From contig NZ_CP133779.1 in the NCBI RefSeq assembly GCF_034347425.1, positions 4,216,001-4,280,000 of the forward strand: a stretch of DNA of 64,000 nt, written 5' to 3'. Made by a program: the position numbers and the translations under genes. Shown here one piece after another: positions 4,430-40,168 of this stretch. The notes under the pieces are model-generated. The model saw nothing but the letters and a program-made list of their open reading frames with translations. It did not search any database and was not told the DNA's origin. The DNA comes from Undibacterium sp. CCC3.4. Its GTDB lineage: Bacteria > Pseudomonadota > Gammaproteobacteria > Burkholderiales > Burkholderiaceae_D. Numbering within the stretch: the first letter of the stretch is position 1; each line of letters starts with the position of its first letter.

Positions 4430-4827
4430 CAACTTAATGGATCGTCGCAAGCGACGATGGAAAAGCCTCTGGAAGGGGTTTGCATCCCCTCCCATCGCGT
4501 CGCTCCTTCGTCGCTCACCGGCCAAAAGACGCTGTCGCAAAAGCCTGATGGACGTTTTTTACACCTGAAACACCGCATACCTCGTCATTCCTGCATGCCA
4601 CAGCCTCGTCATTCCCGCATGCTTTTGGCGGGAACCCAGCGTCGTTTTTTACACTGAAAATGCCACAATTTCTGGCATTTTCAGTTAACCACGAACGCCG
4701 CTGGGTTCCTGCCAAAAGCGCGCAGGAATGACGTGGCCACCAGTTAGGGTAATGATACTGACTCAATACCCTTTTGCGACAGCCTCTGAAGGCCGGGGTT
4801 TCAAACCCTAGTCAGATTTTTGATGAA
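4430..4827 (+). repeat. 398-bp composite repeat, copy 1 (core in orientation A)
   Basis: The 398 bases from CAACTTAATGG to TTTTTGATGAA recur at 39771-40168. The outer arms (101 bp left, 44 bp right) are in the same orientation and nearly identical in both copies; the differences I see are C/A near 4465 and C/G at 4530. The 253-bp core is reversed between the copies. The left arm contains a small hairpin (ATCGTCGC/GCGACGAT) and no credible gene. It lies between the kinase gene and a hepT fragment. Confidence 0.93.
4531..4783 (+). mobile_element. Palindromic MITE-like core, orientation A
   Basis: A 253-bp segment bounded by GCTGTCGCAAAAG and its exact inverse CTTTTGCGACAGC. Inside is a second, longer imperfect inverted repeat (GTCATTCCCGCATGCTTTTG... 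against ...CAAAAGCGCGCAGGAATGAC) and a central hairpin, CTGAAAATGCCA / TGGCATTTTCAG. No transposase is encoded. Nested terminal repeats without coding capacity are the hallmark of MITE-like elements mobilised in trans. The reverse complement of this segment matches 39872-40124 with a single difference that I can find. Confidence 0.85.
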
Positions 4828-4969
4828 CAAAGCGCTGCGCATCCCTGATTACCTCGGCCACATTCTGCAGGCGATTGAGCGCATTGAGCGCGTTATTAAC
4901 ACTTCAATCCTTGACGCCGATAAAATAGTGGAGATTCATGATGCCATCTTCGGTTCTTTAATTACTTAA
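4823..4969 (+). pseudogene. N-terminal fragment of a HepT-like (DUF86) protein
   Basis: A 48-codon frame beginning MNKALRIPDYLGHILQAIER. This matches the opening of HepT/DUF86 proteins, the RNase components of HepT/MntA toxin-antitoxin pairs, which usually run about 110-140 residues. The later catalytic RX4-6H motif is absent because the frame stops at 4967. The start codon sits in the last bases of the 398-bp repeat, so the repeat boundary and the gene fragment coincide. No MntA nucleotidyltransferase partner is visible. I read it as a decayed remnant. Confidence 0.6.
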
Positions 4970-5413
4970 ATTTACGGCTATATGCATTCTGAGGTTGGAT
5001 GTAACATTATTTTAGCCATGGGCACCAAATTTGGTATTAGCTGCCAAGGTTGGAATTGTCGAAAAGTTTCTACTGTCTTTGAGATTATGCTGGTTGGAAT
5101 TGCCAGATCCGTACAGTTTTTGTACCCATATTTCCAGTGGTTGCCTTAGGCTTCTCGATTTTGCCTCCTTTTCTTCCATCATTGTCTCTGTCACTATCTT
5201 TTACGGTTTTGACTGGTTGAGAAATATTGTGCACAGCATCATCGTCAATTAGCATATTCAGGAGATTATATTAATTGATGAAAGTCCAATCGACTATGTC
5301 GAGCGGTGACCGACGAAAACAACCTATCAGTGATTTTCACCTATACCGTTTCAATGGTAACTCGATACCCAAAGCCCAGTGGATCGTCGTAAGAAGGTGC
5401 CACACTATTCCGA
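4970..5413. other. No recognisable gene
   Basis: A 444-bp AT-richer stretch between the hepT fragment and the 3' end of the lipoprotein gene. The short open frames here lack ribosome-binding sites and family features. I see no strong terminator or repeat, except a short GTGGATCGTCGTAAG that resembles part of the left arm of the 398-bp repeat. Confidence 0.5.
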
Positions 5414-6352
5414 TTAAGGCGGACATGCAAAGCTTTGGCGTTCGCTTTGAGCCGGGCCGGATAAAACAAGATCTTTACCGGTGCTATCAACCTCGGAGTG
5501 GTAGTCAAAAGTATTCCAGCTAAAGCCCGCTACGATGCCATATTTCTTGCCTGTGCTTCGCAAAGCGCACCACTGATTTTTCAAATCTTCTTCCAAAATC
5601 ATATAGTTCGCAATTGCTGTGCGTGGACTGGCAGCGAGAATAGTATCCAGTTCAGCGGGGGAGCCAATGTTTTTCAGTAATAGCCTTATCGGATTATTGG
5701 CAGCCTTACCGTTATTGAAGCGGACAATGAAATCGGATAATGGCGTAGCCCCGTTACCGTACCCGGCGCGGTATAAATTATCTACTTCCACCGATACCAC
5801 ACCCAAGGGCTGTAGATCGCTCAATTGTTGTTGCAACTGTTTAAAAAAGCCCGTTTGATTCCATTCCTTCATCCAATCGGCATTGTCATCTTGGCAGTGA
5901 TCACCGACCGGGATCGATTTTGCGACATAGATTTTGGCGGCATTTTGTACGCGCACACATTCATCTGGCGCCCAGCTATTACCGGTTGGTCCGCCTGGCC
6001 CCTCTAAATACACGTGCAAGCGCCAACCCTGAGTACGCATTTTCTGCACGCTGCTCAAAAAATCAGACGACGAGGTATCTCCGCCGACATCTATTCCAGC
6101 AATCACATCCGAATATTTTGCCAATGCAGCCTTCGCCTGTGGTGTAGTCAAGACATCAAGCGCTTTGTGACCAGAACTAAAATAGAAATACGTTAGCGCG
6201 CCGGGTGTCGGTGTCGGTGCCGGTGCCGGTGTGGGTATCGGTGTCGGTGTCGGTGTCGGACCAGGCGCACCGCCGCCACCGCAAGCGAGCAACAGGCTGC
6301 ATAAAGGCAAAGTTAAAAATTGACGATTGCCGATGATTTTTTGGATGTTCAA
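5414..6352 (-). CDS. PT-repeat lipoprotein with a GH114-like (endo-polygalactosaminidase-type) domain
   Basis: A 312-residue predicted lipoprotein. I prefer the TTG start at 6352, with GAGG about 8 bases upstream, because it gives a short basic N-terminus, a hydrophobic stretch and a lipobox LLLACGG (Cys near 23). The next in-frame ATG at 6412 adds a non-signal-like extension. After the Cys comes a Pro-Thr/Pro-Ala linker (TPTPTPIPTPAPAPTPTPG), then a domain starting TYFYFSSGHKALD. The spacing of VIAGIDVGGDTSS, LHVYLEGPGGP and SVEVDNLYR resembles TIM-barrel proteins of the GH114/TM1410 type, so polysaccharide hydrolysis at the outer membrane is a reasonable guess, not a proof. The linker is encoded by GGTGTC-like hexamers (6200-6265), which could vary in number. 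Confidence 0.6.
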   Translation of the reverse strand: MNIQKIIGNRQFLTLPLCSLLLACGGGGAPGPTPTPTPIPTPAPAPTPTPGALTYFYFSSGHKALDVLTTPQAKAALAKYSDVIAGIDVGGDTSSSDFLSSVQKMRTQGWRLHVYLEGPGGPTGNSWAPDECVRVQNAAKIYVAKSIPVGDHCQDDNADWMKEWNQTGFFKQLQQQLSDLQPLGVVSVEVDNLYRAGYGNGATPLSDFIVRFNNGKAANNPIRLLLKNIGSPAELDTILAASPRTAIANYMILEEDLKNQWCALRSTGKKYGIVAGFSWNTFDYHSEVDSTGKDLVLSGPAQSERQSFACPP

Positions 6353-6545
6353 AGCGCTGACCTCACTTGAAAAATGGACTGAGACTACACCAGTATCGGC
6401 TGCGAGCAGCACCGAGACCGAGTTCTAGTAAATAGTTGACTCCTCCGGATGTTGGAATCACTTCTGCTTTTTAAAAAAAAACCAAAGGTGTGTAACTTTA
6501 TTATATCTTTTAGCAATATGAAGACTGAGACTTGAAATGTGCTTT

Positions 6546-7850
6546 TTAATCAAAATCGCCATCCTCAGCCAAACCGATCAAGGTTGGAATATGTGGTCCG
6601 TATTCAATGGTTTCAGATGTAGTCTTGGCTGAAATTTGAGATTCTGAACTTGGAAGAAGGCGAACTCCGCTACCAACTTTCCTAGCCTGTTTTGCGTACA
6701 GTGTTTTCGCACGGATAATCTCGTAACTGTAACCACGACCAATTCGATTTGCCATCTTGATTAGGCCGTTAAGGCATTCAGTGTAAGCATTCGTGATTTG
6801 ACTTGGTGAATCCCAGTACGCAAAAATGTCGTCATAATGGTTATGAACCGTTTTTGCTAAAGAATGAAATTTATCCAATTCCTTATCAGGTAACGAGTTT
6901 TCCCATGCCTCGAAGGCACGCATCGCCGATTCTTTTGTCGGGTCATCATAAATTCTGAAAAATGCTTCTTTGAAATCGTATGCCAGTGCTAACTCTGGAA
7001 TGCTCTTTCGCACCACTTCCAGAGCTTCCTTTTCTGCTGCATTCAAATTCGATGGTCTTTTTAAGGTCAACCACCGAATAGACTTTTTGATATGCACCCG
7101 TTCATTTTTCGAAAGCGTTGCTTGGTATTTCTTACGTTCATCATCTAATGCCTCAGATGCCATCTTAACGACATGAAATTTATCAATGACCAGTCGCGCA
7201 TTTGGCAGATATGGACTGAATGATCGCTTGAAAGGTCTCCACATATCAGTACAGACCCACTCAACTTTTTCGCGGTCTCGCAGTTTTTCAAAGAACGGCA
7301 TCATGTGATCTTGGGTGCGAAACTCAAGCATTTCAAAGACATTGTTCGTGGCCAGATTCGTAATCACGCACCGGTAGTCACCAGCTAGATTCACTTCGTC
7401 TATTCCCATGATGACTGGAGTTTCATAACGAACAGTGCGCTCCAAATCAACAATCAGATCCTGCGCAATGTTCTTGATCGTGTTAACGGCCAAGCCTGTC
7501 TGTTCAGCAAGCGCGTGAAACGTCATTCCAAGACATCGCTGGCGCACAGCATCAACAAGCCGTTTGGTGGCACGCCTGCGTTCATCGAGAAACAGTAAGT
7601 CTGGAGTTGATATCTTTGCGCAACCAATACACCGATACCGTGGTCTGGAAATCTCCAACCGTACCGGCTGCATCTGCATTGGCGTGTCTGCAAAAATATT
7701 AGTTCTGCGTCCATGTCGATGCAAAGGCTTACCGCATTCCTGACAGAATGGTACTTCGCCTTCGAGTACCTCGGCAACAACCGTGATTACACGATTACCA
7801 TAATGCAAATCAACCGGTTTTACTCCCGGCAAGTTAAGTAGGTCGAACAC
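6546..7850 (-). CDS. ISL3-family transposase
   Basis: A 434-residue DDE transposase of the ISL3 type. The N-terminus has a zinc-finger pattern (FCQECGKPLHRHGRR ... YRCIGCA), then a helix-turn-helix region (LAEQTGLAVNTIKNIA). The catalytic core shows IMGIDEVNLAG, VCTDMWRPFKRS and VIDKFHVVKMA, with a later YTECLNGLIK. Length is normal for the family and no stop interrupts it. The oddity is its position: the ATG lies only 10 bp after the hsdR stop, leaving no room for the usual left terminal repeat, and I find no matching terminal repeats at 6430-6545 and near 7850. Either an IS lost its ends or it inserted at the very end of hsdR, or the gene is now part of the restriction operon. Confidence 0.88.
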   Translation of the reverse strand: MFDLLNLPGVKPVDLHYGNRVITVVAEVLEGEVPFCQECGKPLHRHGRRTNIFADTPMQMQPVRLEISRPRYRCIGCAKISTPDLLFLDERRRATKRLVDAVRQRCLGMTFHALAEQTGLAVNTIKNIAQDLIVDLERTVRYETPVIMGIDEVNLAGDYRCVITNLATNNVFEMLEFRTQDHMMPFFEKLRDREKVEWVCTDMWRPFKRSFSPYLPNARLVIDKFHVVKMASEALDDERKKYQATLSKNERVHIKKSIRWLTLKRPSNLNAAEKEALEVVRKSIPELALAYDFKEAFFRIYDDPTKESAMRAFEAWENSLPDKELDKFHSLAKTVHNHYDDIFAYWDSPSQITNAYTECLNGLIKMANRIGRGYSYEIIRAKTLYAKQARKVGSGVRLLPSSESQISAKTTSETIEYGPHIPTLIGLAEDGDFD

Positions 7851-7860
7851 TATTGGCCTC

Positions 7861-10800
7861 TCAACCTATGTCGCTAATGTTTATATCTTTGCGATCGCGG
7901 ATTAATTCGTAAATTATGTCTGTCAGCGCCCCCATAGACTGGCGGTCAGATTTCAACACCAGGGTAGCTAATTTTTGGTGAGACGTCAGAGCCCTGACGA
8001 CTCCTTGTTGCACGGCTCCTGGCAAATTCCCTTTCAGTGCCTGTTCACGTGAATTATTTTCAACCTGAGCCATAACAACATCATTTTCACGAGCGATCGC
8101 AACGATATGATTAACGAAAGTCGCTTGGTCACGAAGTGGTGTTACCTCTCCAAAAAGGCGGTTTAAGCGATCGATGATTTCCATTAGATAATGTGGGTCT
8201 TCACCTTTACTACCTCCGCTACCCGGTCCAATCGGTTTAAGTACAGTTGGATCATTATCATCTACTGGGACATCATCCTTGCGTTTAATATCAAATCCTG
8301 TAAGTACCAACCCTTTCAGATCCACTGACTCAGGAGGTTCGCCATTCAATCGTTTTTGAAGTAACTTCACAAAAGCCGCATAGTTTTCTAACTCAGGATC
8401 ACCAAAATCCACCAGTTGGGCAATGTAAGCATACGTACGGACAAACCTACCCAATCCTGACTTGAACGCAATTAAGGTCTTAATCTGGTCCGCATGTTCT
8501 TTTCTATGATGATCTGCTGATTTCATTGCAGTTTCATCGCCAGTGCTGTGGGCCTTTTCAAAAGCTGCCTCCCACGTTCCAATAGCATCACGAAGCATTT
8601 TCAAGCGCTGATTGAATACACGGGTTGGACGTTCGGTTGCAGCATATAGCGCCTTGTGCTGTGGTTCCTGAGCTTGAGTGATGTCTCGAATAGTTTTGAA
8701 CCGGGCTTCCTTGAACTCTTCCAAGTCCTCTGATTCATAAAGCCCTTGGGCATCCAAAGTTTCTTTGATCTCATAGACGACATTGACGTCTTGCATGTCG
8801 TCAATCTGGGCACCATCGTCATACATGTCAAACGCTCTACGCACATTGGCTGGATCATTGACAAAATCAATAATGAAAACTTCATCCTTGCCTGGCGCCA
8901 TCCGGTTGAGTCGGGAGAAAGTTTGCACAATCTCCACATCATTGGCAATCTTCTTATCAACGTACATGGCGACCAATTTGGGTTGATCAAATCCAGTCTG
9001 AAATTTATCAGCAACAAGCATGACGCGGTATTCAGGTCGTTCAAACGCAATGCGCAAATCCTGTCCAGCCACATCAGGGTTCATACTGACTTCAGTAAAC
9101 TCCTCACCTTCGTCAACCATAAAAATCTCAGCAACGTCACCCACATCATCGCCATGTATAACCTGCTTGCCAGTCATCTTTCCAGAGAAAGCGACCAATG
9201 ACCTAATGCCGGAATACTCAGGGTGCTTTCCGATATAGGCATCAAATCCCTTCTTGTAACGGATTGCCGCAGCCCTGGAGCTTGTGACCACCATAGCCTT
9301 GGCCTTGCCATCAAGGCGGTGCGCCACGTTCTTACTGAAGTGTTCTATGATGAATTGCACCTTCTGGGTCACATTGGTAGGATGTAATGACATCCATTGT
9401 GCCAAAGCCCGTTTGGCACTTTTCCCGCTGACTCTCTTCGTGTCTTCAATCTGTTTGGCAAGATTGAAAGCGGTCTTGTAAGGGATGTATCCCTTTAGCA
9501 CATCAAGAATGAATCCTTCCTCAATGGCCTGACGCATTGGGTAGCGATGGAATGCGCGCGGAAGATTCGTTTTGGAGGCTGGTTTCGTTGGATCTGTCGG
9601 ACGCCCGAACAGCATAAGAGTGGAATGCTTTGGCGTTCCCGTAAACGCAAAATAACTGATGTTGTTAGGTCTAGCCCGTGATTTTTGTAGTTCCTCAAGA
9701 AGCTCCTCTACCGTCAAGGATGCCATCTTCCCGTTGCCACTCATGGCCAATGCGGTCTGTAGTTTGGCGGCGGTCGAGCCTGTTTGTGATGCATGTGCCT
9801 CATCAATGATCACACCAAAGTTTTTGCCTTTTAGTGCTTTGTCAGTAACGATGGCTTCCATCGCAAAGGGGAAGGTCTGTATGGTGACAACAATAATTGG
9901 AGTACCTGCAATTAATGCTTCTGCGAGTTGTTTACTCTTGGATTTTGAAGATTTTTGACGATCAATGGCGGCAATGACTCCGAACTGGTGGTCAATCTGT
10001 TTAACCGCATCCTGAATTTGTCCATCCAACACAGTGCGATCGGTGACAATGATCACGCTACTAAAAATAGTATCACCATTATCTCTACGTAGTTTGACCA
10101 AATCATGGGCAGTCCATGAAATTGTGCTGGTCTTACCGGAACCGGCGCTGTGATCAGCCAGGTATGAAAGACCGGGTCCATTTTTTCGGGCGTCATCAAT
10201 CATGTCATTGACAGCGGACCACTGGTGGTAGCGAGGGAAAATCAGGGTTTCACGTTTGGACCAGTTACCTTTGATGTCGACAACGTCCTTTTTCTCAACA
10301 TAAACGAAACTGTGAAAGATACGCAGCCAGGCATCAGGTTGACAAACCTGTTCCCAAAAGTAAGCGACCGGATATTCTTTGTCTGCACGTTGGGGGTTGC
10401 CAGCATGACCTTCGTTGCCCTGATTGAAGGGCAGAAAGAACGTGTTTTCACCTTCTAATTTTGTCGCCATCTGAATATCAGAATCCGACATAGCAAAGTG
10501 AACAACAGCTCCCCGTTTAAATGTCAGTAGCGGTTCTTTGCGTTTAGTTTTGGAGTCGTACGGCAAGCGATCAGTTTTGTATTGATCCATGGCCGCTTCA
10601 GCAGACTGAGTAAAGTCGGTTTTGAGTTCAACCGTAGCAACTGGCAAACCATTGATGAACAACACGAGGTCAATGGCTAATTTTCTGCTTGGATGGTATT
10701 GAAGCTGAGGTACAACGCGCAACACGTTGGAGGCATAGCGCTTGAGTACGGTTTCATTGCGCTTGTCCTCAGGTGCAGCTTCCGACAAATCCAAATGGCC

Positions 10801-11088
10801 ACAACCAGCAATGGAAAAGCCATTACGAAATACATGCATGGTGCCGTGTTGATCAAGTGCCTTGGCTAAGCGATCCATCAAGATATCACGGGCTCGCTCG
10901 CCGTTATCCTTGCAGAGCTTGGTCCACTTTTCAGGTTGAGTAACTTCAAGCCAATTGATCAAATCATCTGGGTATAGAGCGCGCTCGGTGTCGTACTGGA
11001 GTGTACTGCCGACTTTCCAGCCTTGCGCTTCCAGTTTGGAAACGATGTAGGCTTCGAAATGCTTTTCTTGGTGCGCGGTATCACTCAT
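7861..11088 (-). CDS. hsdR: Type I restriction enzyme, motor/endonuclease subunit HsdR
   Basis: A 1075-residue HsdR, the ATP-dependent translocase and nuclease subunit of a type I restriction complex. The N-terminal PD-(D/E)XK nuclease carries IDLVLFINGLPVATVELK. The superfamily 2 motor follows: Walker A DHSAGSGKTSTISW (about residue 315), DEAHASQTG, AFTGTPK, and a C-terminal RecA lobe with KFQTGFDQPKLVAMYVDK and QTFSRLNRM. Length is normal and there are no internal stops. The start overlaps the preceding small gene by 4 bp (11085-11088), and the ISL3 transposase gene follows after 10 bp. It should act with HsdS and HsdM encoded upstream; its activity in the cell depends on whether HsdM is made. 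Confidence 0.95.
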   Translation of the reverse strand: MSDTAHQEKHFEAYIVSKLEAQGWKVGSTLQYDTERALYPDDLINWLEVTQPEKWTKLCKDNGERARDILMDRLAKALDQHGTMHVFRNGFSIAGCGHLDLSEAAPEDKRNETVLKRYASNVLRVVPQLQYHPSRKLAIDLVLFINGLPVATVELKTDFTQSAEAAMDQYKTDRLPYDSKTKRKEPLLTFKRGAVVHFAMSDSDIQMATKLEGENTFFLPFNQGNEGHAGNPQRADKEYPVAYFWEQVCQPDAWLRIFHSFVYVEKKDVVDIKGNWSKRETLIFPRYHQWSAVNDMIDDARKNGPGLSYLADHSAGSGKTSTISWTAHDLVKLRRDNGDTIFSSVIIVTDRTVLDGQIQDAVKQIDHQFGVIAAIDRQKSSKSKSKQLAEALIAGTPIIVVTIQTFPFAMEAIVTDKALKGKNFGVIIDEAHASQTGSTAAKLQTALAMSGNGKMASLTVEELLEELQKSRARPNNISYFAFTGTPKHSTLMLFGRPTDPTKPASKTNLPRAFHRYPMRQAIEEGFILDVLKGYIPYKTAFNLAKQIEDTKRVSGKSAKRALAQWMSLHPTNVTQKVQFIIEHFSKNVAHRLDGKAKAMVVTSSRAAAIRYKKGFDAYIGKHPEYSGIRSLVAFSGKMTGKQVIHGDDVGDVAEIFMVDEGEEFTEVSMNPDVAGQDLRIAFERPEYRVMLVADKFQTGFDQPKLVAMYVDKKIANDVEIVQTFSRLNRMAPGKDEVFIIDFVNDPANVRRAFDMYDDGAQIDDMQDVNVVYEIKETLDAQGLYESEDLEEFKEARFKTIRDITQAQEPQHKALYAATERPTRVFNQRLKMLRDAIGTWEAAFEKAHSTGDETAMKSADHHRKEHADQIKTLIAFKSGLGRFVRTYAYIAQLVDFGDPELENYAAFVKLLQKRLNGEPPESVDLKGLVLTGFDIKRKDDVPVDDNDPTVLKPIGPGSGGSKGEDPHYLMEIIDRLNRLFGEVTPLRDQATFVNHIVAIARENDVVMAQVENNSREQALKGNLPGAVQQGVVRALTSHQKLATLVLKSDRQSMGALTDIIYELIRDRKDINISDIG

Positions 11089-11429
11089 ATTTTTGCCTTT
11101 AGTCTCTTTGCTTCAGTCACACCGTGTCGTGCCAAAAATATTGGACCCCACGCATCTGCACCTTCAGCGGTGATTGCAGAAACAAGATCCGAGCCATCTA
11201 TTAACATTCTCTTTGTAATTCTCTGAAAACCTAATGTTGGACCAAGGGTTTCACCTGATTGAAGTTCGGGAGCATTATCGATAATGAATTTCGTGACGTC
11301 TGCCCAAAGTTCATTATTATCCCGGTAGGCAACAGCGATGAGGTGTTCGATTGTGCAATAGCCATGATCTAAACTTTCCGCTAACTTCCATGCTCGCATC
11401 ACCAGATTTTCTGCTTCGGTTTTTGTCAT
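11085..11429 (-). CDS. Small Clp-N-domain-like protein inside the type I operon
   Basis: A 114-residue soluble protein of unknown role. Its first half (AENLVMRAWKLAESLDHGYCTIEHLIAVAY) resembles half of a Clp N-terminal repeat, the fold that in ClpA/ClpB/ClpC binds adaptors and substrates (typical pattern: A...LA..L.H..I..EHLL.A). No AAA+ domain follows. It overlaps hsdS by 4 bp at its start and hsdR by 4 bp at its end, so it is translationally coupled and most likely works with the complex. Type I systems are known to be controlled by ClpXP proteolysis of HsdR (restriction alleviation), which makes a Clp-related adaptor attractive, but this is inference from resemblance only. Confidence 0.6.
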   Translation of the reverse strand: MTKTEAENLVMRAWKLAESLDHGYCTIEHLIAVAYRDNNELWADVTKFIIDNAPELQSGETLGPTLGFQRITKRMLIDGSDLVSAITAEGADAWGPIFLARHGVTEAKRLKAKI

Positions 11430-12730
11430 GCAAACTCCCGTAGATCGATTTGGCCTGTGACGGCGGCGGTAATGAATGCAGATCGACGCTCTTTTAGGAG
11501 ATTGACACTGTGTTGGGTTTTTCTTATGAGCAGGTCAATCCGGTTCATCGCAGCGTCCACCGTTTCGACTATTTTCATCTGCTCTTGAACGTCGGGCAAC
11601 GAGACAGGGAATTCTCCATATCGTTCTGCCCCAACATTTTCAATGGTAGCCTGAATAGCTGTTCTTTGGATGTAATCCCAATAGTAGTAGGAACGAACTG
11701 CGAGAGCTATGAAATCTGGGATGACTTGATTTGCATCAAAACGACCACGAATGAGATAGCCCGCAAAACACGCTGGGCCATGTTCAGACTTATATCGATA
11801 TGTCTTTCCTACTGTTGCTCCACTTCGAGCAAACAAAATATCGCCATCTGCCAACATGTATGGCTGTGCGATGTCAAACGGAAGGCGTTTTACTGAGTTG
11901 TTGCGTAAGCTTCCAGACTCATCGAGGTCAGTAATTCGAATATATCGTGGACCTTCTAAGATAGAGTCGTCTCCTGACTCATTCGCACCATATTTTAATG
12001 GGCTTTGAAGGAGATGTTTAAGTCTCTTTATAGACCAATGTACTGGGATGTCACCAATCAACTCTACCCCTGAATCCTTCATTTTCACATTGGGATCAAG
12101 CCCCTTGGTGACAGCGTTCGTGATCAGTGCTTGGCGCTTTTCTTTCAGGAGTTCAATAAAGCGGCTTTTCTTTGCAATTAGAGAATCGATGCGCTTGGTC
12201 TCTCGATCAAGGACGTCAATAATTTCAGATTGTTCTGAGGGTTTTGGTGATGGTACATGGAGTGAACAGACATGTTCCCAATCAGCTCGCGGCATCTTGC
12301 TGCCCTCGCACCCAGCCTCAATCTGTTGTGTTACAACAGTTGTTAGCATCCATTGATGTAGCCATGCCGATATGACTGATCTGGGCTGGATAACAAGAAA
12401 TTCAGTTGAACAAAGCCCGTTTGAATCAGTGACGATCGCTTTCTTCAGATAAGGACGTAGTTTCCCATATAAGACATCGCCTGATCGGAAGACACCTACG
12501 GTCGAATCTTCATTTTGGCGAGAGCTGCCTTCAGTTGGACGGTACTTCCCTGTGCCTGACTCCACATCTTCCAATCCAATGTAATTCGATCCATCAGAAG
12601 CATCTGTACATCGTTCAGTTCTCAGAGAGGATGCGCGTTTAATTCTTGTTACATCCCAATGCTCAGGTACATTGCCAATCCATTCAATCCCTGAATTTTT
12701 GTATGAAGCGTAAGGTTTGTATTGGCTCAT
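11426..12730 (-). CDS. hsdS: Type I restriction enzyme specificity subunit HsdS
   Basis: A 434-residue HsdS, which recognises the two halves of the DNA target and anchors HsdM and HsdR. Two target-recognition domains are visible in tandem, each opened by the usual motif: YKNSGIEWIGNVPEHW near residue 10 and MKDSGVELIGDIPVHW near residue 215. Each is followed by a helical conserved region (DRETKRIDSLIAKKSRFIELLKEKRQ and, in the second half, MNRIDLLIRKTQHSVNLLKERR). The repetition implies a full-length two-TRD subunit that should read a bipartite sequence. It overlaps both neighbours by 4 bp. No second hsdS copy or inverted TRD cassette is in the window, so shuffling is not evident. Confidence 0.95.
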   Translation of the reverse strand: MSQYKPYASYKNSGIEWIGNVPEHWDVTRIKRASSLRTERCTDASDGSNYIGLEDVESGTGKYRPTEGSSRQNEDSTVGVFRSGDVLYGKLRPYLKKAIVTDSNGLCSTEFLVIQPRSVISAWLHQWMLTTVVTQQIEAGCEGSKMPRADWEHVCSLHVPSPKPSEQSEIIDVLDRETKRIDSLIAKKSRFIELLKEKRQALITNAVTKGLDPNVKMKDSGVELIGDIPVHWSIKRLKHLLQSPLKYGANESGDDSILEGPRYIRITDLDESGSLRNNSVKRLPFDIAQPYMLADGDILFARSGATVGKTYRYKSEHGPACFAGYLIRGRFDANQVIPDFIALAVRSYYYWDYIQRTAIQATIENVGAERYGEFPVSLPDVQEQMKIVETVDAAMNRIDLLIRKTQHSVNLLKERRSAFITAAVTGQIDLREFA

Positions 12731-14607
12731 TCTGATTCTTCCGCGTCACTAACTGCCCTATAAGCTTGGTGTGGGTGATTAGGCTGATCAGGAATGGTGT
12801 AAGCGAGCACTCCAGCACTAACCAAAGGGCGAAGGTACTGAGTTCCTAAATAGTCAGCGTTGCGATTAAAAAGACCTGCTAGCTCTGAAGCTTGCCATGA
12901 CCGGTATTTGCAAAGTTGAATCAGGGCCTCGCGGACTTTGTCAGGCGGGGTCCGTTGTCCCATCGAGGAGACCATTTCTTGAAGCTCTTTTGGCAATTCT
13001 TGCCAATTGGGGTTACTAGACAAGGTTCCGAGGTTACTAGATAAGCCACCGAGGTTACTAGATAAGGACCCGAGGTTACTAGATAAGCCATCGGTCTGAC
13101 TAGATATTGTGTCATCTTCTCTCTTGCCGTCTAGTAAACATGAGGTTGGCTGGTAATATGTTCCTGAACCACGCCCTTTTTGCTCCAATAGACCTGCATC
13201 CCGTAATCGCTTCAGGGACTGGCTAGCACTGAGGGTATCAACACGATTGAGCTCGCGGTACATAGAATTGTCAATGGCCCCTTGCTCACGGACCGCCACA
13301 AGCGCACGAGCCTCCTCGTCGGACAAGTGAAGATCTCGAAAGCGACTGAGCCATTCGATAGATTCTTCGTTCAGGAAGTGTTGGAAGTAATACCGTGCAA
13401 CAAAGCTATCATTACTGCGAGTGGACTCGAACAGCGGTGGTTCCAAACCTGCTGCCACCATCATTTCACGCATAACACGAATACCAGAACCCTTGGTTTC
13501 TGCAAATCGTGTGTCGAGTAAGACGGCAGCTATACGAGGATTGCGGGGTACAGAACCAGGCTCACCGAGATGTTCTGGTGATTTTAACGAATGCCCAGGA
13601 TTATGAATCTCAATCCTGTTTGAATAACGAATGATCTGCAGCGGGGCATGGCTGCGATAGCTGCGATGCATCAACGCGTTAACGATGCCTTCACGCAGCA
13701 CTCGTTGAGGGATTATCGGTTTGTCCTTTCGCTGAGCATCTCCTTCTGCAAGACCGAATCCCACGGGAAGGTCATCTAGCACAGCGGCGAGCGCACGACG
13801 GATGGCTCTGAACAAGTAGTCTCGAATCTCGACGGAATCAAAACGACGCTCTGGGTCAGGAATCCACTCCTTGCCCGGAACGCGAATATAGTCTACTCGG
13901 GTCATCGGATAAACACGTCGCAGCGCCTGTTGCCTTCCGAATAATTGGAGCCCAGCTACGGTGAACTTCCATACTCCTTCATGGCGCCTGATACAACCAA
14001 GAGATTCAAGGAGTTCTTCGTCGTTCCAGCGTAGTTCTTCGGCGTCGGCATTCGCTTCTGCTCGTACTTTTCTATATTCTTCGATAGCTTCTAACGACAT
14101 GTCGGCCATCGATGTATCTGGCAAAATTGTGTAATCAAAACTTTCGATCTGTCGTCCCTGATAAAGGACCTGTAGGTCATCCTCGGTACAGTGCTGATCA
14201 GTGCTTCCGATACGGCGAAATGCACCTCGGGGTAGCCCGCGCGATTTGATAAAGATCGGCTTATCCCCTGGCTGTGCTTCAGGAACAGTCACAACCAAAA
14301 CTGTGCAACCGCTAATCTGTTCACTTGCAATCTGGACACGAACTGGGACATTGAACTGATCGCGGCATTGAGTCGCAAGTGAGGCGCTCAGCGCATCGGG
14401 ATGCAATATGCCTTCAACAACGTAAGGGGAAAACAGGTCGCTTTCGTCGCGGACTACACCCAGCAACAATATACCTCCTTGTAAGCCGGGCTCATTGGCA
14501 AAAGCGCAAACTGTTTCTAGGATGGATGGGCCGATTTCGGTTCCACGCTTTGCCTCCAGTCGCTCATTTTCATCCAAAGTATTAAGGAGGCTGAGATAGT
14601 CTGTCAT
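12727..14607 (-). CDS. AlbA_2 (Schlafen-type) / HATPase_c_4 regulator-like protein
   Basis: A 626-residue protein with an N-terminal AlbA_2 domain (LDENERLEAKRGTEIG, then ETVCAFANEPGLQGGILLLGV), and a HATPase_c_4 region near residues 310-410 (VLREGIVNALMHRSYRS, RIEIHNPGH, FAETKGSGIRVMREMM). Winged-helix segments follow (about 425-490), then four or five heptads of the type LSSNLGG, and a further helical C-terminus. Such proteins are often annotated as ATP-dependent helicase RecG-like or transcriptional regulators and recur beside type I restriction genes. Here it sits between hsdM and hsdS with 4-bp overlaps on both sides. Its function in the system is not established; DNA or RNA binding with ATP-dependent regulation is inference. 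Confidence 0.85.
   Translation of the reverse strand: MTDYLSLLNTLDENERLEAKRGTEIGPSILETVCAFANEPGLQGGILLLGVVRDESDLFSPYVVEGILHPDALSASLATQCRDQFNVPVRVQIASEQISGCTVLVVTVPEAQPGDKPIFIKSRGLPRGAFRRIGSTDQHCTEDDLQVLYQGRQIESFDYTILPDTSMADMSLEAIEEYRKVRAEANADAEELRWNDEELLESLGCIRRHEGVWKFTVAGLQLFGRQQALRRVYPMTRVDYIRVPGKEWIPDPERRFDSVEIRDYLFRAIRRALAAVLDDLPVGFGLAEGDAQRKDKPIIPQRVLREGIVNALMHRSYRSHAPLQIIRYSNRIEIHNPGHSLKSPEHLGEPGSVPRNPRIAAVLLDTRFAETKGSGIRVMREMMVAAGLEPPLFESTRSNDSFVARYYFQHFLNEESIEWLSRFRDLHLSDEEARALVAVREQGAIDNSMYRELNRVDTLSASQSLKRLRDAGLLEQKGRGSGTYYQPTSCLLDGKREDDTISSQTDGLSSNLGSLSSNLGGLSSNLGTLSSNPNWQELPKELQEMVSSMGQRTPPDKVREALIQLCKYRSWQASELAGLFNRNADYLGTQYLRPLVSAGVLAYTIPDQPNHPHQAYRAVSDAEESE
13008..13100 (-). 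repeat. Tandem 21-bp repeat coding for LSSNLGx heptads
   Basis: About four in-frame 21-bp units around GAGGTTACTAGATAAG in the AlbA_2/HATPase gene, giving GLSSNLGSLSSNLGG and similar heptads. Unit length is a multiple of three, so gain or loss of units would change the linker length and keep the frame. Confidence 0.85.
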
Positions 14608-15347
14608 TGTGTAACCTCACCTAACAACTCAGCAATTTCCGCCTCAACTTGTTTTAGATCTGCGTCAATATCGATCAATTTTCGCGGTGGCACATATTGA
14701 TAGAAGAATCGATTGAAGTTAATTTCATACCCAACACGTCCAATTTCTTTATCCTTTTCATCACGGAAAGTCTCGTCAATATAAGCATCTGGAAAGTGGG
14801 GAAGAACCTCGCGTGCGAAGTAGTCACGAATTTCTTCTGTTAGCGGAACGTTTTCATTGTCCGTCAAATCGGAATCAGCAACTATGTTTCCATCTGCATC
14901 AAGCACAGCTTCTCCAGCAGGATCGCGTTCGCCGAAGGCATTGATAAGAGCTTTGATAAATGGTTTACTAACTTTTCCAAAAACCTGTGAAGTTTTCACG
15001 GTTTCAGTCACAAAAGATTCCGCCCATGCAAATGGCTGACTAAAACCATTGCGTGGTTGCAAGGCTTCTTCCCATGCAACTTGCTGTTCTATGGTGAGCT
15101 TTGCCCAAGTCTTCTCTTGCTTGAGTTTAACTATAGATTCATCAGTAATATGGAGAGACATCCGAAGGGGACGCAGCACCTTAATACGACGATACCCAAA
15201 AATTCGGTAGTCCACCATACGGCTGAGTTCACTACTATCTGCAGTAGCGTACAAGTCTACAATCTGTCTGATCTGATCATCACTGATCATTCGCCGCTTG
15301 TTACCTTCGTTCTTAATTGATGTCCATAGATCCGATGCATTGAGCAA
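14604..15347 (-). CDS. hsdM: HsdM C-terminal part, separated by a frameshift
   Basis: The C-terminal third of the type I methyltransferase. The frame is open from about 15419, but the first ATG gives a 247-residue piece starting MLNASDLWTSIKNEGNKRR. Upstream of that ATG the frame reads RTGIGTYLWILSNKKPENRRHK, a normal continuation of HsdM after the NPPF core. It ends with a helical tail (DIDADLKQVEAEIAELLGE) of the type that contacts HsdS, and its stop overlaps the next gene by 4 bp. No good ribosome-binding site precedes the ATG, so I do not think it is an independent gene. It belongs with the 404-residue N-terminal part as one gene, 14604-16621, about 672 residues. Confidence 0.85.
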   Translation of the reverse strand: MLNASDLWTSIKNEGNKRRMISDDQIRQIVDLYATADSSELSRMVDYRIFGYRRIKVLRPLRMSLHITDESIVKLKQEKTWAKLTIEQQVAWEEALQPRNGFSQPFAWAESFVTETVKTSQVFGKVSKPFIKALINAFGERDPAGEAVLDADGNIVADSDLTDNENVPLTEEIRDYFAREVLPHFPDAYIDETFRDEKDKEIGRVGYEINFNRFFYQYVPPRKLIDIDADLKQVEAEIAELLGEVTQ

Positions 15348-15406
15348 TTGAACTTTGTGGCGACGGTTTTCAGGCTTTTTATTGGATAAAATCCATAGAT
15401 AAGTAC

Positions 15407-16621
15407 CTATACCAGTGCGAAAAAAATCTCAGTTGGCAGTGATACGATAGCTTCCACCATATCATTTTCTAATAACCATCGTCGAATCTCGGATTCACCA
15501 GAACCGGCACCACCGTTGAATAAAGGTGATCCAGACAAAACAATTGCAGCGCGCCCCCCACCGTTCTCCGGGAGTTCAAGCTTGCTGGCCAGATTCAGCA
15601 AGAAAAGCATGGATCCATCATTAATGCGGGGTAAACCGGGCCCAAATCGACCGTCGTACTTCTTCTCTTTGTGTTCATCAGTGACCGCTGTTTGATCTTT
15701 CTCCCATTTTTTTCCGAATGGAGGATTGGACACGCCGTAATGAAATCTTTGTCCAGCGAATTGGTCGTTAGAAAGCGTGCTCCCAAGTTTGATATTCTTT
15801 GACAGGTCACGCCCAGGGTCCGACTCAAGTGTTCGCAATAACATGCCAGTCAGGCAGACAGCATGGGTCTCTGGTTCGAGTTCCTGCCCATAGGGAATGA
15901 TGACTGGTGGAACTTTAAAACGATTGCCGTAATCTGCTACATGATTCATGGCATCAGAAATAAATCCACCGGTACCACATGTCTGGTCATAGAGCGTACG
16001 GATCAATCCTGGATTAGACTCGAACAGGGCATCGTCGGGATCCAATAGCAAGGAAGTGGCAAGGTGCACGACATCTCGCGGCGTCATGAAATCCTCGGCA
16101 CCTTCATTGACTTCTGCACCGAAGCGGCGGATCAGGTGCTCATACAGATTGCTCATGACACGATCCGGCACCACATCTGGATGTAGGTCAACTCCAGCAA
16201 AATTCTTGCAAATTTTAAACAGTACCCCAGCCTTATCTAGCCGAATCACTGTGTTGGAAAAATCGAACTGTTCAAAGATGATGCGTGCGTTGTCTGAAAA
16301 GTGAGCAACGTAGTCCTGAAGATTTTGTCGCGTCTTGGTGCCGCCCAGAGTGCTTAGTGCATACTCTGACGTATTGTAGAAAGGGTAACGTGTGCATTGG
16401 CGCAGAATAAGATCAAGGTCGATGCCAGAGTCTTTATGAAGTTCGTTTGCGTCACGAACATCTTGTCGAGTAGGGTCAAGAACGCACTCCAGACGACGAA
16501 GCAAAGTGAATGGCAAAATAATCTTGCCAAAATCTGTATGTTTGAAGTCACCCCAAAGGTCTTCGGCATTTTTCCAAATGAAATCCGCTAAAGATGCTGC
16601 TGAGCCGGTTTGTTCTGCCAT
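15407..16621 (-). CDS. hsdM: Type I DNA methyltransferase HsdM, N-terminal part (frameshifted)
   Basis: The first 404 residues of HsdM, the S-adenosylmethionine-dependent N6-adenine methyltransferase that protects host DNA. An N-terminal helical domain (LADFIWKNAEDLWGDFKHTDFG) is followed by the catalytic domain with FMTPRDVVHLA, the AdoMet-binding DQTCGTGGFISDA (about 215) and the catalytic NPPFG (about 305). The frame ends EIFFALV-stop, where family members continue EIFFRTGIG. The break falls in a run of seven T on the coding strand (15420-15426). This is the first gene of the operon; divergent vapB starts about 200 bp away. Possibilities are a null mutation, phase variation by slippage, programmed -1 frameshifting or a sequencing error. 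Confidence 0.9.
   Translation of the reverse strand: MAEQTGSAASLADFIWKNAEDLWGDFKHTDFGKIILPFTLLRRLECVLDPTRQDVRDANELHKDSGIDLDLILRQCTRYPFYNTSEYALSTLGGTKTRQNLQDYVAHFSDNARIIFEQFDFSNTVIRLDKAGVLFKICKNFAGVDLHPDVVPDRVMSNLYEHLIRRFGAEVNEGAEDFMTPRDVVHLATSLLLDPDDALFESNPGLIRTLYDQTCGTGGFISDAMNHVADYGNRFKVPPVIIPYGQELEPETHAVCLTGMLLRTLESDPGRDLSKNIKLGSTLSNDQFAGQRFHYGVSNPPFGKKWEKDQTAVTDEHKEKKYDGRFGPGLPRINDGSMLFLLNLASKLELPENGGGRAAIVLSGSPLFNGGAGSGESEIRRWLLENDMVEAIVSLPTEIFFALV
15419..15426 (-). other. Frameshift site in hsdM: T7 run forming a T TTT TTC heptamer
   Basis: On the coding strand the context is GAG ATT TTT TTC GCA. One more T, or a -1 ribosomal slip on the heptamer T TTT TTC, restores EIFFRTGIG and joins the two HsdM parts. 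T TTT TTC fits the X XXY YYZ pattern of canonical -1 slippery sites. I cannot tell a slip site from a mutation or a sequencing error by eye. Confidence 0.8.
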
Positions 16622-18015: not shown

Positions 18016-18105
18016 TGGAGGAGAGAGGGGGATTCGAACCCCCGATACTATCGCTAGTACGCCTGATTTCGAGTCAGGTACATTCAACCACTCTGCCACC
18101 TCTCC
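18016..18105 (-). tRNA. tRNA-Ser (CGA)
   Basis: The minus strand folds as a class II tRNA. Acceptor GGAGAGG pairs with TCTCTCC, the D arm follows, the anticodon arm CTGA-CTCGAAA-TCAG shows anticodon CGA, then a long variable arm and GGGGG-TTCGAAT-CCCCC as T arm. CCA is encoded. The discriminator base is T, where serine tRNAs usually have G. Its 3' end is duplicated 150 bp downstream. Confidence 0.95.
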
Positions 18106-20246: not shown

Positions 20247-20381
20247 AGAGGCTGTCGCAAGTCGGACCGACATTTTTGCATCTGAAACGCCGCCAGGTTC
20301 CCAGCAAAAACGCGCGGGAATGACGTGACTGCCGACCAGGGGATAGTGATACCGACTGAAAATTCTTTTGCGACAGCCTCT
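20247..20381 (+). mobile_element. Short MITE-like element, same terminal repeats as the 253-bp core
   Basis: A 135-bp element between AGAGGCTGTCGCAA and TTTTGCGACAGCCTCT. Its inside is shorter than the 253-bp cores but keeps pieces such as GGTTCCCAGC, GCGCGGGAATGACGTG and ATAGTGATACCGACTGAAAA. It lies in the gap between two convergent genes and encodes nothing. Confidence 0.8.
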
Positions 20382-29319: not shown

Positions 29320-29673
<354 letters not shown>

Positions 29674-33559: not shown

Positions 33560-33564
33560 GCCCA

Positions 33565-33680
33565 GAAATTTTCCCAACTGGCAGTCGCGTCGTTCCTGCG
33601 AGCTTTTGGCAGGAATCCAGCGACGTTCGTCGTTAACTGAAAACGACACGGTGTTCCCGCCAGAGGCATGCGAAATTCTT
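33565..33680. repeat. Degenerate piece of the MITE-like core
   Basis: GTTCCTGCGAGCTTTTGGCAGGAATCCAGCG and GTTAACTGAAAA match the inner inverted repeat of the 253-bp core, but the GCTGTCGCAAAAG ends are lost. It lies between the kinase and ppa genes and looks like an old, decayed insertion. Confidence 0.65.
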
Positions 33681-33712
33681 AAAAAAAACGCACCGACAAG
33701 GGTGCGTTTTTT
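33681..33712. terminator. Bidirectional terminator between the kinase and ppa
   Basis: AAAAAAAACGCACC and GGTGCGTTTTTT pair around a 6-base loop; the A and T runs let it stop transcription from both convergent genes. Confidence 0.85.
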
Positions 33713-33735
33713 CCAACGACAGCAAGGCTGTCGTT

Positions 33736-34272: not shown

Positions 34273-34385
34273 GGCACTCTTTCTTGGTAAATATCAGGTA
34301 GAACTAAATTCGGTCAGGGCAGATTATAGCCAATTTCGGCAGGGTTTTGTGCACTGCCGCAGCGCGCTGAGCGCCGCCACGGCAA

Positions 34386-35582: not shown

Positions 35583-35585
35583 ACG

Positions 35586-36740: not shown

Positions 36741-37504
36741 AGACGAGATTGTAACGCGACAAGCACATGCGCGTCGCCTGAGCCAGTCAAAGTGACATGA
36801 TGAAACCCCAGTGCCGCAGCCGATTCTGCAATGCGAACGTGAGGAACGATTAAATGTTGATGTTGCATTTTTACGACAGCATTATCCAAATCGAGCTGTC
36901 GACTCCAACTCACCAGCGTGCGTAAGGCTTCCGAACTGGTGATGATCCAATCATTATCGCGGTCGAGCAAGTCCGTCAATTGCTGCTTCACTCGCGCATC
37001 AAACAGCGGCGCACCACGGCGATAAGCGAGCACTTGTTCGACCTCGGCACCGCAAGAACGTAATGCATCAGCCAATAATTCACGCCCCCCGGCGGCGCGT
37101 ACGATCAACACCGGACGACCACGTAATGCCGCAGCATCGAGTTCTTCAAGCAGCGTTTCCGAATCGGTACGCACTGCATTACGCGGACTGATGATGTTGG
37201 CATTACTATCATCGATACCATGTTTCTGTAGCGCCACTCGGCTGCCGGCACCGATAATGGCAATCGAGACAGCAACTGGCCACTTTGGAACATGCGCGAG
37301 CAAGGCCGCGATCGCATTCGGACTCACGAAAGCGACCAGCGCGAAATCCGACAAGCGTGCCACCACCGCCCGCAAGGCCGACTGATCTGCCAGCGCCGCG
37401 ATATCGAGCAGAGGAAAAATACAAGTGCGCAGCCCGAGCGCTTCTACCTGCGCGGCCAGCGGCACTGCTTGCGCCAACGGACGCGTCACGATCACCTGCG
37501 ACAT
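36737..37504 (-). CDS. hemD: Uroporphyrinogen-III synthase
   Basis: A 255-residue cytosolic enzyme that cyclises hydroxymethylbilane with D-ring inversion. HemD sequences are poorly conserved, but the start VIVTRPLAQAVPLAAQVEALG, the middle LIVRAAGGRELLADALRSCGAEV, and WIITSSEALRTL fit the family, and the order hemC-hemD-hemX-hemY confirms it. It lies 37 bp after hemC and overlaps hemX by 4 bp. Confidence 0.94.
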   Translation of the reverse strand: MSQVIVTRPLAQAVPLAAQVEALGLRTCIFPLLDIAALADQSALRAVVARLSDFALVAFVSPNAIAALLAHVPKWPVAVSIAIIGAGSRVALQKHGIDDSNANIISPRNAVRTDSETLLEELDAAALRGRPVLIVRAAGGRELLADALRSCGAEVEQVLAYRRGAPLFDARVKQQLTDLLDRDNDWIITSSEALRTLVSWSRQLDLDNAVVKMQHQHLIVPHVRIAESAAALGFHHVTLTGSGDAHVLVALQSRL

Positions 37505-37541
37505 GGCTTGCTCATTTCAAAAAAATTCCCCTTGCGCCGCA

Positions 37542-38489
37542 TTATGCCAGCGGCTCGACCCGACAAGCCGCCAAAATACCAGCGGCATCTTGCGCCGCCA
37601 AGGCCTGCGCCAGTTGCGCTCCCAAGGCCGGTGCCTCCAGCGCCGCGCCACGTACCTCGGCGGCGGCAATACGGCTGCCGTCCGGCATGGCGACCATGGC
37701 ACGCACATGCATACTGCCATCGACCACCGTGGCATAGGCTGCCAGCGGAATCTGGCAACTGCCGCCGAAGGCCTTCGATACAGTCCGCTCGGCCGTCACT
37801 GCCTGCGCCGTGGCGAGATGATTGAGCGGGGCCAGCCAAGCCGCCAAATCGGCACGCTGTGCCGGAATTTCTATCGCCATCGCGCCCTGTCCCGCCGCTG
37901 GCAAACTCTGTTCGGGCGCCAGAAAGGCACGGATACGTTCTGGCACAGCCAGGCGTTTCAGGCCGGCCGCGGCCAGAATGATGGCATCGTATTCCCCCTC
38001 ATCGAGCTTGCGCAGGCGGGTATCCAAGTTGCCACGCAGGGGGCGAATGATCAAACGCGGAAAGCGTGCCGCGATCAAAGCTTGGCGCCGCAGGCTGCTG
38101 GTGCCGACCACCGCACCATCGGGCAGTTCGGCCAGCCCGGCATAACGATTTGAGACAAAGGCATCGCGCGGATCTTCGCGCTCGAGTACGGCCGCGAGGG
38201 CAAACCCATCCGGCAAATCCATCGGCACGTCTTTGAGCGAATGCACGGCCAAATCAGCCAAACCATTGGCCATTGCCACTTCCAACTCCTTGACGAACAA
38301 ACCTTTTCCGCCTACTTGCGAGAGCGCGCGATCAAGAATTTGATCACCACGTGTCGTCATGCCAAGTATTGAGATGTCACAGAGTGGGTACAAAGCGCTC
38401 AGGCGGTCGCGCACATGCTCGGCTTGCCACATGGCGAGCCGGCTTTCGCGCGAAGCGATCACCAGTTTTACAGGAGAAGTGGGGGTCAA
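37542..38489 (-). CDS. hemC: Porphobilinogen deaminase (hydroxymethylbilane synthase)
   Basis: A 315-residue cytosolic enzyme that links four porphobilinogens. Visible marks are [17 protein letters not shown], the substrate-binding [21 protein letters not shown], and [12 protein letters not shown], whose Cys carries the dipyrromethane cofactor. It is the first gene of the hemCDXY unit. trpS is divergent with about 257 bp between; I see no haem- or iron-related operator there. Confidence 0.97.
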
Positions 38490-38746
38490 AATAGCGATCT
38501 TTCGGTTGACGTTAGCAAGGGCACGATGCCGAACATTGCCTAGGTGCGGAATTTTACCACTGCCGATTCATGAATTCGCCGCCATTCCACGGTAAAATCA
38601 TCACACTTATTGATCTGGCTCTCACAATTTGACAAGATTTCAACAGCGCGTGCATGATAATGCCTTCTGGCATAGCAGCGCAGCGTCAAGACGCCGCCCC
38701 ATTTTTCAGTCCTTTCTTCATTTACGCACGTAGCGACGGATTCCCC

Positions 38747-39769
38747 ATGCAAGCAAGCACCACAGACAACAAAAACCACCTGATCCTGACTGGCGACCGC
38801 CCGACTGGTCCACTGCACTTAGGCCATTACGTCGGCAGCCTGCGCAATCGCGTCAAGTATCAACACCAATACCAGCAATACATCATGCTGGCAGATGCGC
38901 AAGCACTGACCGACAACATGGATGACCCGAGCAAGGTGCACAACAATGTACTCGAGGTCGCGCTCGACTACCTTGCCGTCGGCATCGATCCGAGCAAGTC
39001 CACCATATTCATCCAGTCGCAAATTCCGGAATTGACCGAACTGACCTTCTACTACCTCAACTTGGTCACGGTAGCACGACTCGAACGCAATCCGACCATC
39101 AAACAAGAAATCGTCTTGCGCAATTTTGAACGGGACATCCCGGCCGGCTTCCTGACTTACCCAGTCAGCCAAGCCGCCGACATCACCGCATTCAAAGCCA
39201 GTCTGGTACCGGTCGGTGAAGATCAGATACCGATGATAGAACAGACCAATGAGATCGTGCGCCGGTTCAACCGCATCGTGAATCGCGACATCTTGGTCGA
39301 ATGCCAGGCCTTGGTACCGGAAATCGGTCGCCTGCCCGGCATTGATGGCAAAGCCAAGATGAGCAAATCGCTGGGCAACGGCATCATACTCGGTGCCAGT
39401 CCGGCAGAAATCAAGGCAGCCGTGCGCAATGTCTACACCGATCCTTTGCACCTGCGCGTGGCCGACCCCGGCCACATTGAAGGCAATGTTGCCTTCATTT
39501 ACCTCGATGCCTTCGACGAAGATAAAGCCGCAGTGCAAGCGCTGAAAGAACACTATGTGCGCGGCGGCTTGGGTGACAGTGTGGTCAAGGCACGCTTGGA
39601 AGGCGTGCTGCAAGATATGCTCGCACCCATCCGTGCGCGCCGCGAAGAGTTTGCCAAAGACCGCGGCGAAGTGTTACAAATGCTCAAAACTGGCACGGCG
39701 CGCGCACGTGAAATTGCGGCCCGGACTACCGATGAAGTCAAGGCCGCCATCGGATTGAAACACTTCTGA
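38747..39769 (+). CDS. trpS: Tryptophanyl-tRNA synthetase
   Basis: A 340-residue class I synthetase. The HIGH-like motif lies in [20 protein letters not shown] and the KMSKS motif in [13 protein letters not shown] (about 203). I use the ATG at 38747, because the longer frame from 38654 adds 31 residues without similarity to the family. The 3' end at 39769 abuts the 398-bp repeat (starting 39771), so the repeat replaced whatever natural terminator lay there; its small hairpin at 39782-39797 may serve. Confidence 0.95.
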
Positions 39770-39770
39770 A

Positions 39771-40168
39771 CAACTTAATGGATCGTCGCAAGCGACGATG
39801 GAAAAGACTCTGGAAGGGGTTTGCATCCCCTCCCATCGCGTCGCTCCTTCGTCGCTCACCGGCCAAAAGAGGCTGTCGCAAAAGGGTATTGAGTCGGTAT
39901 CATTACCCTAACTGGTGGCCACGTCATTCCTGCGCGCTTTTGGCAGGAACCCAGCGGCGTTCGTGGTTAACTGAAAATGCCAGAAATTGTGGCATTTTCA
40001 GTGTAAAAAACGACGCTGGGTTCCCGCCAAAAGCATGCGGGAATGACGAGGCTGTGGCATGCAGGAATGACGAGGTATGCGGTGTTTCAGGTGTAAAAAA
40101 CGTCCATCAGGCTTTTGCGACAGCCTCTGAAGGCCGGGGTTTCAAACCCTAGTCAGATTTTTGATGAA
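39771..40168 (+). repeat. 398-bp composite repeat, copy 2 (core in orientation B)
   Basis: It has the same outer arms as 4430-4827, in the same direction and with the same lengths (101 and 44 bp), but the core between the GCTGTCGCAAAAG ends is reversed. It sits between trpS and an usp gene. Here the left terminal repeat is a perfect 17-bp match to the right one (AGAGGCTGTCGCAAAAG). Confidence 0.93.
39872..40124 (-). mobile_element. Palindromic MITE-like core, orientation B
   Basis: This 253-bp segment equals the reverse complement of 4531-4783, with one difference that I see (GAGTCGGTATC here against GAGTCAGTATC). Its inner inverted repeat and central hairpin are the same. Equal length to the base and equal arms argue for a flip in place, not two unrelated insertions. 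Confidence 0.85.

Follow-up and report, generated by a model that had tools for sequence, protein, structure and literature searches.

How two nearly identical repeats come to carry their central parts in opposite directions, with their outer parts running the same way, is the question raised by a pair of 398-bp copies in the 4.59-Mb, single-contig genome of Undibacterium sp. CCC3.4. The window analyzed, that is, the whole stretch under study, comprises 64,000 nt of contig NZ_CP133779.1 (positions 4,216,001–4,280,000, forward strand), and the two copies lie at window positions 4430–4827 and 39771–40168. Both stretches were read directly, and the direct arms and opposite cores described in an earlier note on this DNA were confirmed. 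We consider it likely that the core is a hairpin-targeting miniature inverted-repeat transposable element (MITE) nested in a second repeat, and that its orientations come from insertion and later exchange, not from a switch. In this explanation, the inner 259-bp core and the outer repeat would be two nested mobile repeats, the core being a short transposon without a gene that is moved by an IS1182-type transposase. The MITE would enter hairpin loops, the loop being the recognized feature, and would normally duplicate the 4-base loop; one favored target would be a hairpin, CCGGCC-TGAA-GGCCGG, which belongs to a ~135-bp repeat that is itself spread across the genome. Because the MITE ends are symmetric and the target is palindromic, the element could land either way round and leave near-identical arms with opposite cores, and the present orientations would reflect independent insertions plus later exchange between copies.

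In copy 1, the left arm (4430–4523), which ends in the stem half CCGGCC, is followed by the tetranucleotide AAAA (4524–4527), the core (4528–4786), the tetranucleotide TGAA (4787–4790), which equals the loop of the empty hairpin, and the right arm (4791–4827), which begins with the stem half GGCCGG. The core of copy 1 is in orientation F, with its CCTG end on the left, and its inverted ends occupy 4528–4543 and 4771–4786. Copy 2 starts directly behind a frame at 38654–39769 that encodes a Trp/Tyr-type class I tRNA synthetase, and consists of the left arm (39771–39864), AAAA (39865–39868), the core in the flipped orientation R (39869–40127; inverted ends 39869–39884 and 40112–40127), TGAA (40128–40131), and the right arm (40132–40168). 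All these parts are assigned to the + strand except the core of copy 2, which is on the − strand. Over the left arms with their AAAA (94 + 4 bases), 1 mismatch in 98 positions separates the two copies, and there is none over the final 41 bases, made up of TGAA and the right arm. The core measures 259 bp when its inverted repeats are included in full, and direct comparison after reverse-complementing gave 2 differences in 259, one of them at the third base of the end, which reads GACGC in copy 1; compared on the same strand, the two cores match at only 87 of 259 positions. The earlier description of a 253-bp core with about one difference holds if the ends are counted from GCTGTCGC, which omits base 3, and needs adjusting to 259 bp and 2 differences for the outer ends. 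The likeness of the window pair is far beyond chance and is not limited to two copies.

The core as a MITE and its probable partner transposon

The core is bounded by 16-bp inverted ends, GAGGCTGTCGCAAAAG. With at most 1 mismatch, the core end GAGGCTGTCGCAAAA occurs 124 times per strand of the genome, compared with 0 and 1 for the control, and the left arm at 72 places with at most 3 mismatches, compared with 0 for the reversed control pattern; a two-copy oddity is ruled out by these searches. The 125 regions around the listed places were examined, so that copy counts taken from them are lower bounds. At least 86 end-to-end pairs of 100–420 bp were present, of which 51 lie between two arms, 20 are armless and 15 are one-armed; the 86 include one 128-bp pair formed with an inner repeat, and some core ends have no partner at this distance. 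Core lengths step by ~24 bp (235, 259, 283, 307, 331, and 355 bp, plus neighbors), following the count of an internal unit, and most copies have identical 16-bp ends (75 and 77 of 82). Between two arms, the core sits in the loop of the outer repeat's hairpin CCGGCC-TGAA-GGCCGG.

Several further arrangements of cores were noticed. Tandem cores with only TGAA between them occur at genome positions 4053740–4054237, 2683244–2683885, and 3984983, and look as if one core had entered the duplicated loop of another. At 1543914–1545398, a core still lying between AAAA and TGAA is split by an insertion sequence with an rve-domain transposase, which we take to belong to the IS3 family. Within the window, a diverged 133-bp relative with the same kind of ends, to which no strand is assigned, lies at 20248–20380 between CCGCCCTAAA and TGAACGGG, in surroundings that resemble another hairpin (CCGCCC-TAAA ... 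TGAA-CGGG), and a fragment at 33568–33648, behind a protein-kinase gene, resembles the interior of the flipped core at 83% and has no clear core ends.

A search of the genome for DDE_Tnp_1 gave 9 matches, and one of the nine loci (L302) is bracketed by core ends. Among the other loci, L298 has a separate short core beside it, and L295 and L301 have one end-like site each. The bracketed element is 2298 bp long (genome 4335452–4337749), lies inside an outer copy with flanks AAAA and TGAA, that is, in the same hairpin loop, and contains an open transposase frame of 555 aa. Its first 193 bases are 84% and its last 23 bases 92% identical to the core. The protein has the domains DUF772 (42.3 bits), DDE_Tnp_1_6 (71.9 bits), and DDE_Tnp_1, the first two exceeding their cut-offs of 23.1 and 25.1, and this combination of DUF772 and DDE_Tnp_1_6 presumably marks the IS1182 family. 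The NCBI model for IS1182 (NF033551) matched with an E value of 7.8e-78 over model positions 9–487 of 488, and the next model reached 39.5 bits.

Because the 2298-bp element has the same ends and core-like termini, the core is, by its anatomy, a MITE of this IS1182-type element. It is present in many copies, it shares its ends with a transposase-bearing element of the same genome (ends at positions 27 and 2324 of L302 bracket the transposase), and exact target duplications accompany 10 of its 20 armless copies, with TGAA on both sides in only 9 of 56 tabulated rows within the outer repeat. We infer that the IS1182-type transposase of this genome moves the MITE.

A search of named genomes for relatives of the transposase gave 17, of which 8 belong to Massilia cavernae. 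Of 14 relative loci examined, 6 have both ends and equal 4-bp flanks, in M. cavernae and two other Burkholderiales records; their ends read GAGG(C/G)TGTCGC and the duplications are TGAA in three, TTCA in two, and TGTA in one. Several of these six loci look like hairpin loops, e.g., GCCG-TGTA-CGGC. As for the remaining loci, L312 has both ends, and the others are cut, degenerate, or unequal.

The outer repeat and its hairpin loop

The arms are the two halves of a ~135-bp repeat. When the 398-bp sequence of copy 1 was searched against the genome, the best 40 of 201 candidates included at least 21 matches spanning at least 372 query bases, copy 1 among them, and at least 6 further matches over nearly the whole query at 70–75% identity, which represent the flipped-core arrangement, copy 2 among them. 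Nine outer copies carry no core; the junction of their arms is TGAA in seven, TGA in one, and TGTA in one. Six of the seven TGAA junctions read CCGGCC-TGAA-GGCCGG, and the seventh has GGCCGA. As a single strand, the empty repeat is predicted to fold into a hairpin with a TGAA loop (z −2.5 for the whole repeat). Searches of Rfam with three loci of empty outer copies (L213, L214, and L203) gave no match. With L302, Rfam returned only microRNA models far below their gathering scores, lying on a long inverted repeat, and these were taken as chance.

Relatives of the outer repeat were matched in 9 of 294 sampled genomes of the family, with two candidates scored per genome; all nine belong to other genera, and the best identity was 90%. 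Eight aligned loci of this kind have a short loop at the place of the core and no core, and no core ends were present in the 7 loci checked for them. The absence of the core from these relatives in other genera makes it probable that the outer repeat existed before the core occupied it. Within the genus, the matches listed for the 398-bp query in 42 other genomes (at most 16 candidates scored in each) were short inner-core pieces only, and the exact 16-base core end was present in one of the 42, twice. The 13 congener loci found through the tRNA-synthetase protein contain no arm on the one strand checked and no core end; one of them (L348) keeps the gene order with 172 bp instead of 481 bp to the next gene, and in the other 12 the next gene was not recognized by the pattern used. 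Phage records gave no match. Among 6 matches to Y1 transposases, no partner of the outer repeat was established; one locus (L306) has a diverged outer copy near IS200/IS605-like genes, with ends that are not shown to be those of the outer repeat. This copy (positions 2263–2396 of the locus) stands directly before a short gene that we take to encode a BrnT-type toxin, and its loop region, CCAAGTTCA, may be the trace of an earlier insertion.

Exact 4-bp duplications flank 10 of the 20 armless cores (TAAA, TCAA, TTAA, TTGA, TGAA, or TTCA); 2000 shuffled pairings gave 1.9 on average and never more than 6. Judging from these duplications and from the equal flanks of the relatives, insertion at a hairpin loop with duplication of the loop seems to be the normal product. 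In the outer repeat, TGAA stands on both sides of the core in 9 copies (3 F and 6 R). Two options raised in the earlier note, namely that a transposase works on the ends or that separate insertions hit one spot, come close to this genome-wide picture of coreless arms, armless cores with exact duplications, and a larger transposon with the same ends. The coreless arms had also been named there as part of what would favor independent insertion over flipping.

Orientation of the cores and probable exchange between copies

Relative to the outer repeat, the orientation of the core is 25:25 among the 50 typed of the 51 two-armed copies. A maximum-likelihood tree was built from 50 cores (50 of the 56 tabulated copies, not quite the same set as that of the 25:25 count); orientation requires 15 changes on this tree compared with a mean of 16.5 after shuffling, 135 of 500 shuffles being as low, and the well-supported branches alone force 9 changes. 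Three sets of cores that are identical over the 235 kept columns occur in opposite orientations. Orientation is thus not tied to core ancestry, and over 47 copies it showed no association with core distance (p 0.16), with left-arm distance including a few flank bases (p 0.09), or with the distance of both arms without flank (p 0.47). Core variants are mixed across orientations: of 42 informative core sites, 36 are variable among F as well as among R cores, and all four combinations occur in 268 of 861 site pairs, a count to which repeated mutation could add. These patterns are as expected if cores exchange sequence regardless of orientation, and such core-to-core exchange would explain near-identical opposite cores such as those of the window pair without a recent flip. 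With the origin and terminus guessed from the G–C skew of the fetched regions, no association was found between core strand and estimated fork direction (44 against, 38 with; p 0.58). The two-armed outer repeats that hold a core run against the estimated fork direction in 34 cases and with it in 17 (p 0.024, one of several tests).

Several observations count against the explanation by insertion and exchange or limit it. The transposase scored 262.5 bits, just below the curated cut-off of 270 for NF033551, hence the label IS1182-type. Exact duplication is missing in 10 of the 20 armless copies, and some of the ten duplicated targets are alike (two read CCGGCC-TCAA-GGCC, and one lies beside another core), so that not all are independent. 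The stem signal around armless cores is weak (3.5 of 6 pairs compared with 3.0 after shuffling, shuffle maximum 3.9), perhaps because many targets share G+C-rich stems. All 6 typed cores that lie beside a left-arm variant with G at the sixth base are in orientation F, and there is a weak correlation between core and arm distances (r 0.22, p 0.02), which means that orientation and core are not wholly free of the arm lineage. Finally, clean duplications are the minority in the outer repeat: AAAA on the left and TGAA on the right flank the core in 36 typed copies (20 F, 16 R), and CCAA and TGAA in 4 (2 F, 2 R, one R being a 574-bp composite). Since unequal flanks dominate, a fresh insertion for each copy is insufficient as an explanation, and later exchange, in-place replacement, or in-place inversion is needed besides insertion.

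Flanks seem to be uncoupled from what lies between them, and the border runs at the core ends. The AAAA/TGAA flanks enclose cores in F and in R, a core of a different type (L257), the core interrupted by an insertion sequence (L205), a tandem pair (L244), and the full 2298-bp element. Left-arm distance is associated with the left tetranucleotide (p 0.005), and the tetranucleotide (AAAA or CCAA) therefore seems to belong to the arm lineage. Uncoupling of this kind can come about through gene conversion between outer copies, transposase-driven replacement, or inversion between the ends. As MITE copies are long hairpins themselves, the transposase might exchange a copy for a different one or for the full transposon, whichever way round, with the flanks intact; this is a tentative proposal, which we hold to be possible rather than probable, and it would add to the explanation by insertion and exchange rather than oppose it, with orientation reset at each swap. 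The diverse contents of the AAAA/TGAA flanks, the full element included, and the presence of both orientations in CCAA/TGAA flanks are consistent with it, as is the end variant GACGC, which all 5 carriers among 82 typed cores, F and R alike, have at their CCT end, so that the tip travels with the core. Moreover, replacement of the stem-loop has been proposed for the staphylococcal element IS1272, in a model which, in the part consulted, also has a branch with duplication of the loop only (PMC5678879). However, ordinary gene conversion between copies whose arms and ends are near-identical gives an equal pattern, the cores look recombined, no replacement event was observed, and a single outer-lodged R copy (L249) carries the tip variant. 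Somewhat more speculative still is the general form of this proposal, in which a transposase that reads shape targets its own hairpin-shaped copies, and the cassettes of the hairpin sockets (MITE in F, MITE in R, or full transposon) are exchanged in place with the flanks kept. If this is true, cassettes turn over in sockets throughout the genome without leaving new target sites.

In-place inversion, i.e., flipping of the core by recombination or template switching between its 16-bp inverted ends without a transposase, appears improbable to us. Both orientations occur in each flank class (AAAA 20:16, CCAA 2:2, and TGAA 3:6), the three identical-core sets are in opposite orientations, and the ends are almost uniformly preserved, all of which inversion would account for. 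Nevertheless, a crossover within the end should in many cases have put GACGC next to the arm instead, and the variant stayed on the CCT end in all five carriers, a weak argument with one outer-lodged R copy; exchange between cores, of which there are signs, also explains why F and R cores have sequences in common; and the constant pairing of the G arm variant with F suggests that flipping is probably not fast.

The earlier note had further suggested a switchable element, and this suggestion gained no support. A dedicated phase switch would consist of an invertase acting on the core ends and toggling a neighboring gene, and inverted ends in two orientations are indeed what it predicts. We regard it as very improbable, because the end occurs at 124 sites per strand, the flanks vary from copy to copy, the ends are common with a transposon, and orientation is balanced genome-wide; no site-specific invertase was found among the 18 window proteins scanned, which are part of the window's genes (recombinases were not scanned for across the genome). 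The core ends were rejected as invertase sites because the transposon has the same ends. Least credible of all is an assembly artefact, in which cores, being near-identical repeats, were placed in the wrong direction: many copies exist in each orientation, with their own outer flanks and partly their own core variants, and the genome is a single contig. A flipped core between direct arms, as this system shows, need not imply a switch. Two things make the system interesting: it offers many sockets that are nearly identical, and its flanks seem uncoupled from what they enclose.

Other features of the window were also recorded. At its end, copy 1 meets the beginning of a 48-codon frame (4823–4969), which presumably resembles the start of a HEPN/DUF86 protein. 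At 6546–16621, an ISL3-type transposase adjoins type I restriction genes (HsdR-, HsdS-, and HsdM-like), among which a Schlafen/AlbA-type protein is encoded, and a tRNA-Ser lies nearby (18016–18105). A 60-bp terminator-like hairpin at 58992–59213 is repeated 162 bp apart beside tRNA-Asp and tRNA-Val.

Comparison with known systems

IS1272 and TnSha1, members of the IS1182 family from staphylococci, target hairpins by shape, IS1272 with little sequence preference, and insertions in both orientations were seen at one target (PMC4923244). The system described here is similar in its IS1182-type DDE transposase, 16-bp inverted ends, hairpin targets, and use of both orientations. In the sections of Wan et al. 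drawn on here, the stem-loop is replaced by IS1272 without duplication, and one branch of the model duplicates the loop only (PMC5678879). In contrast, the clean cases here keep the stem and duplicate the 4-base loop; deletion of the stem-loop without duplication was not seen at the clean sites, and the element is therefore not classed as IS1272-type. The clean cases fit the loop-duplication branch, which that paper, as far as it was drawn on, presents as a possibility for IS1272 (PMC5678879), and the element may act like IS1272 on its own copies. A further difference from IS1272 as portrayed in those parts is that the mobile unit here is mostly a 235–355-bp MITE and that one target is itself a multi-copy repeat. 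About 60 near-identical hairpin sockets, 51 filled between both arms and 9 empty, with either direction represented, form a natural test set, which is suited to testing the proposed shape-directed transposition of IS1182-type elements.

At the level of titles and the opening lines of abstracts, with subscription journals mostly outside the coverage, no IS1182-type MITE with loop duplication was recognized in the literature. The neisserial intergenic mosaic repeats are likewise nested short repeats with inverted ends that are mixed by recombination, a likeness by description only. Insertion sequences that target repetitive extragenic palindromic (REP) sequences also have a repeated palindrome as their target, at the level of description and in the portion of the paper used (PMC1525189), whereas here a MITE fills many copies of the target, in both directions. 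Bacterial MITEs in general, as characterized in the relevant part of PMC10969869, are likewise short, present in many copies, and provided with inverted ends common with a larger element; the MITE of Undibacterium sp. CCC3.4 differs from them in its hairpin-loop target and its variable number of 24-bp internal units.

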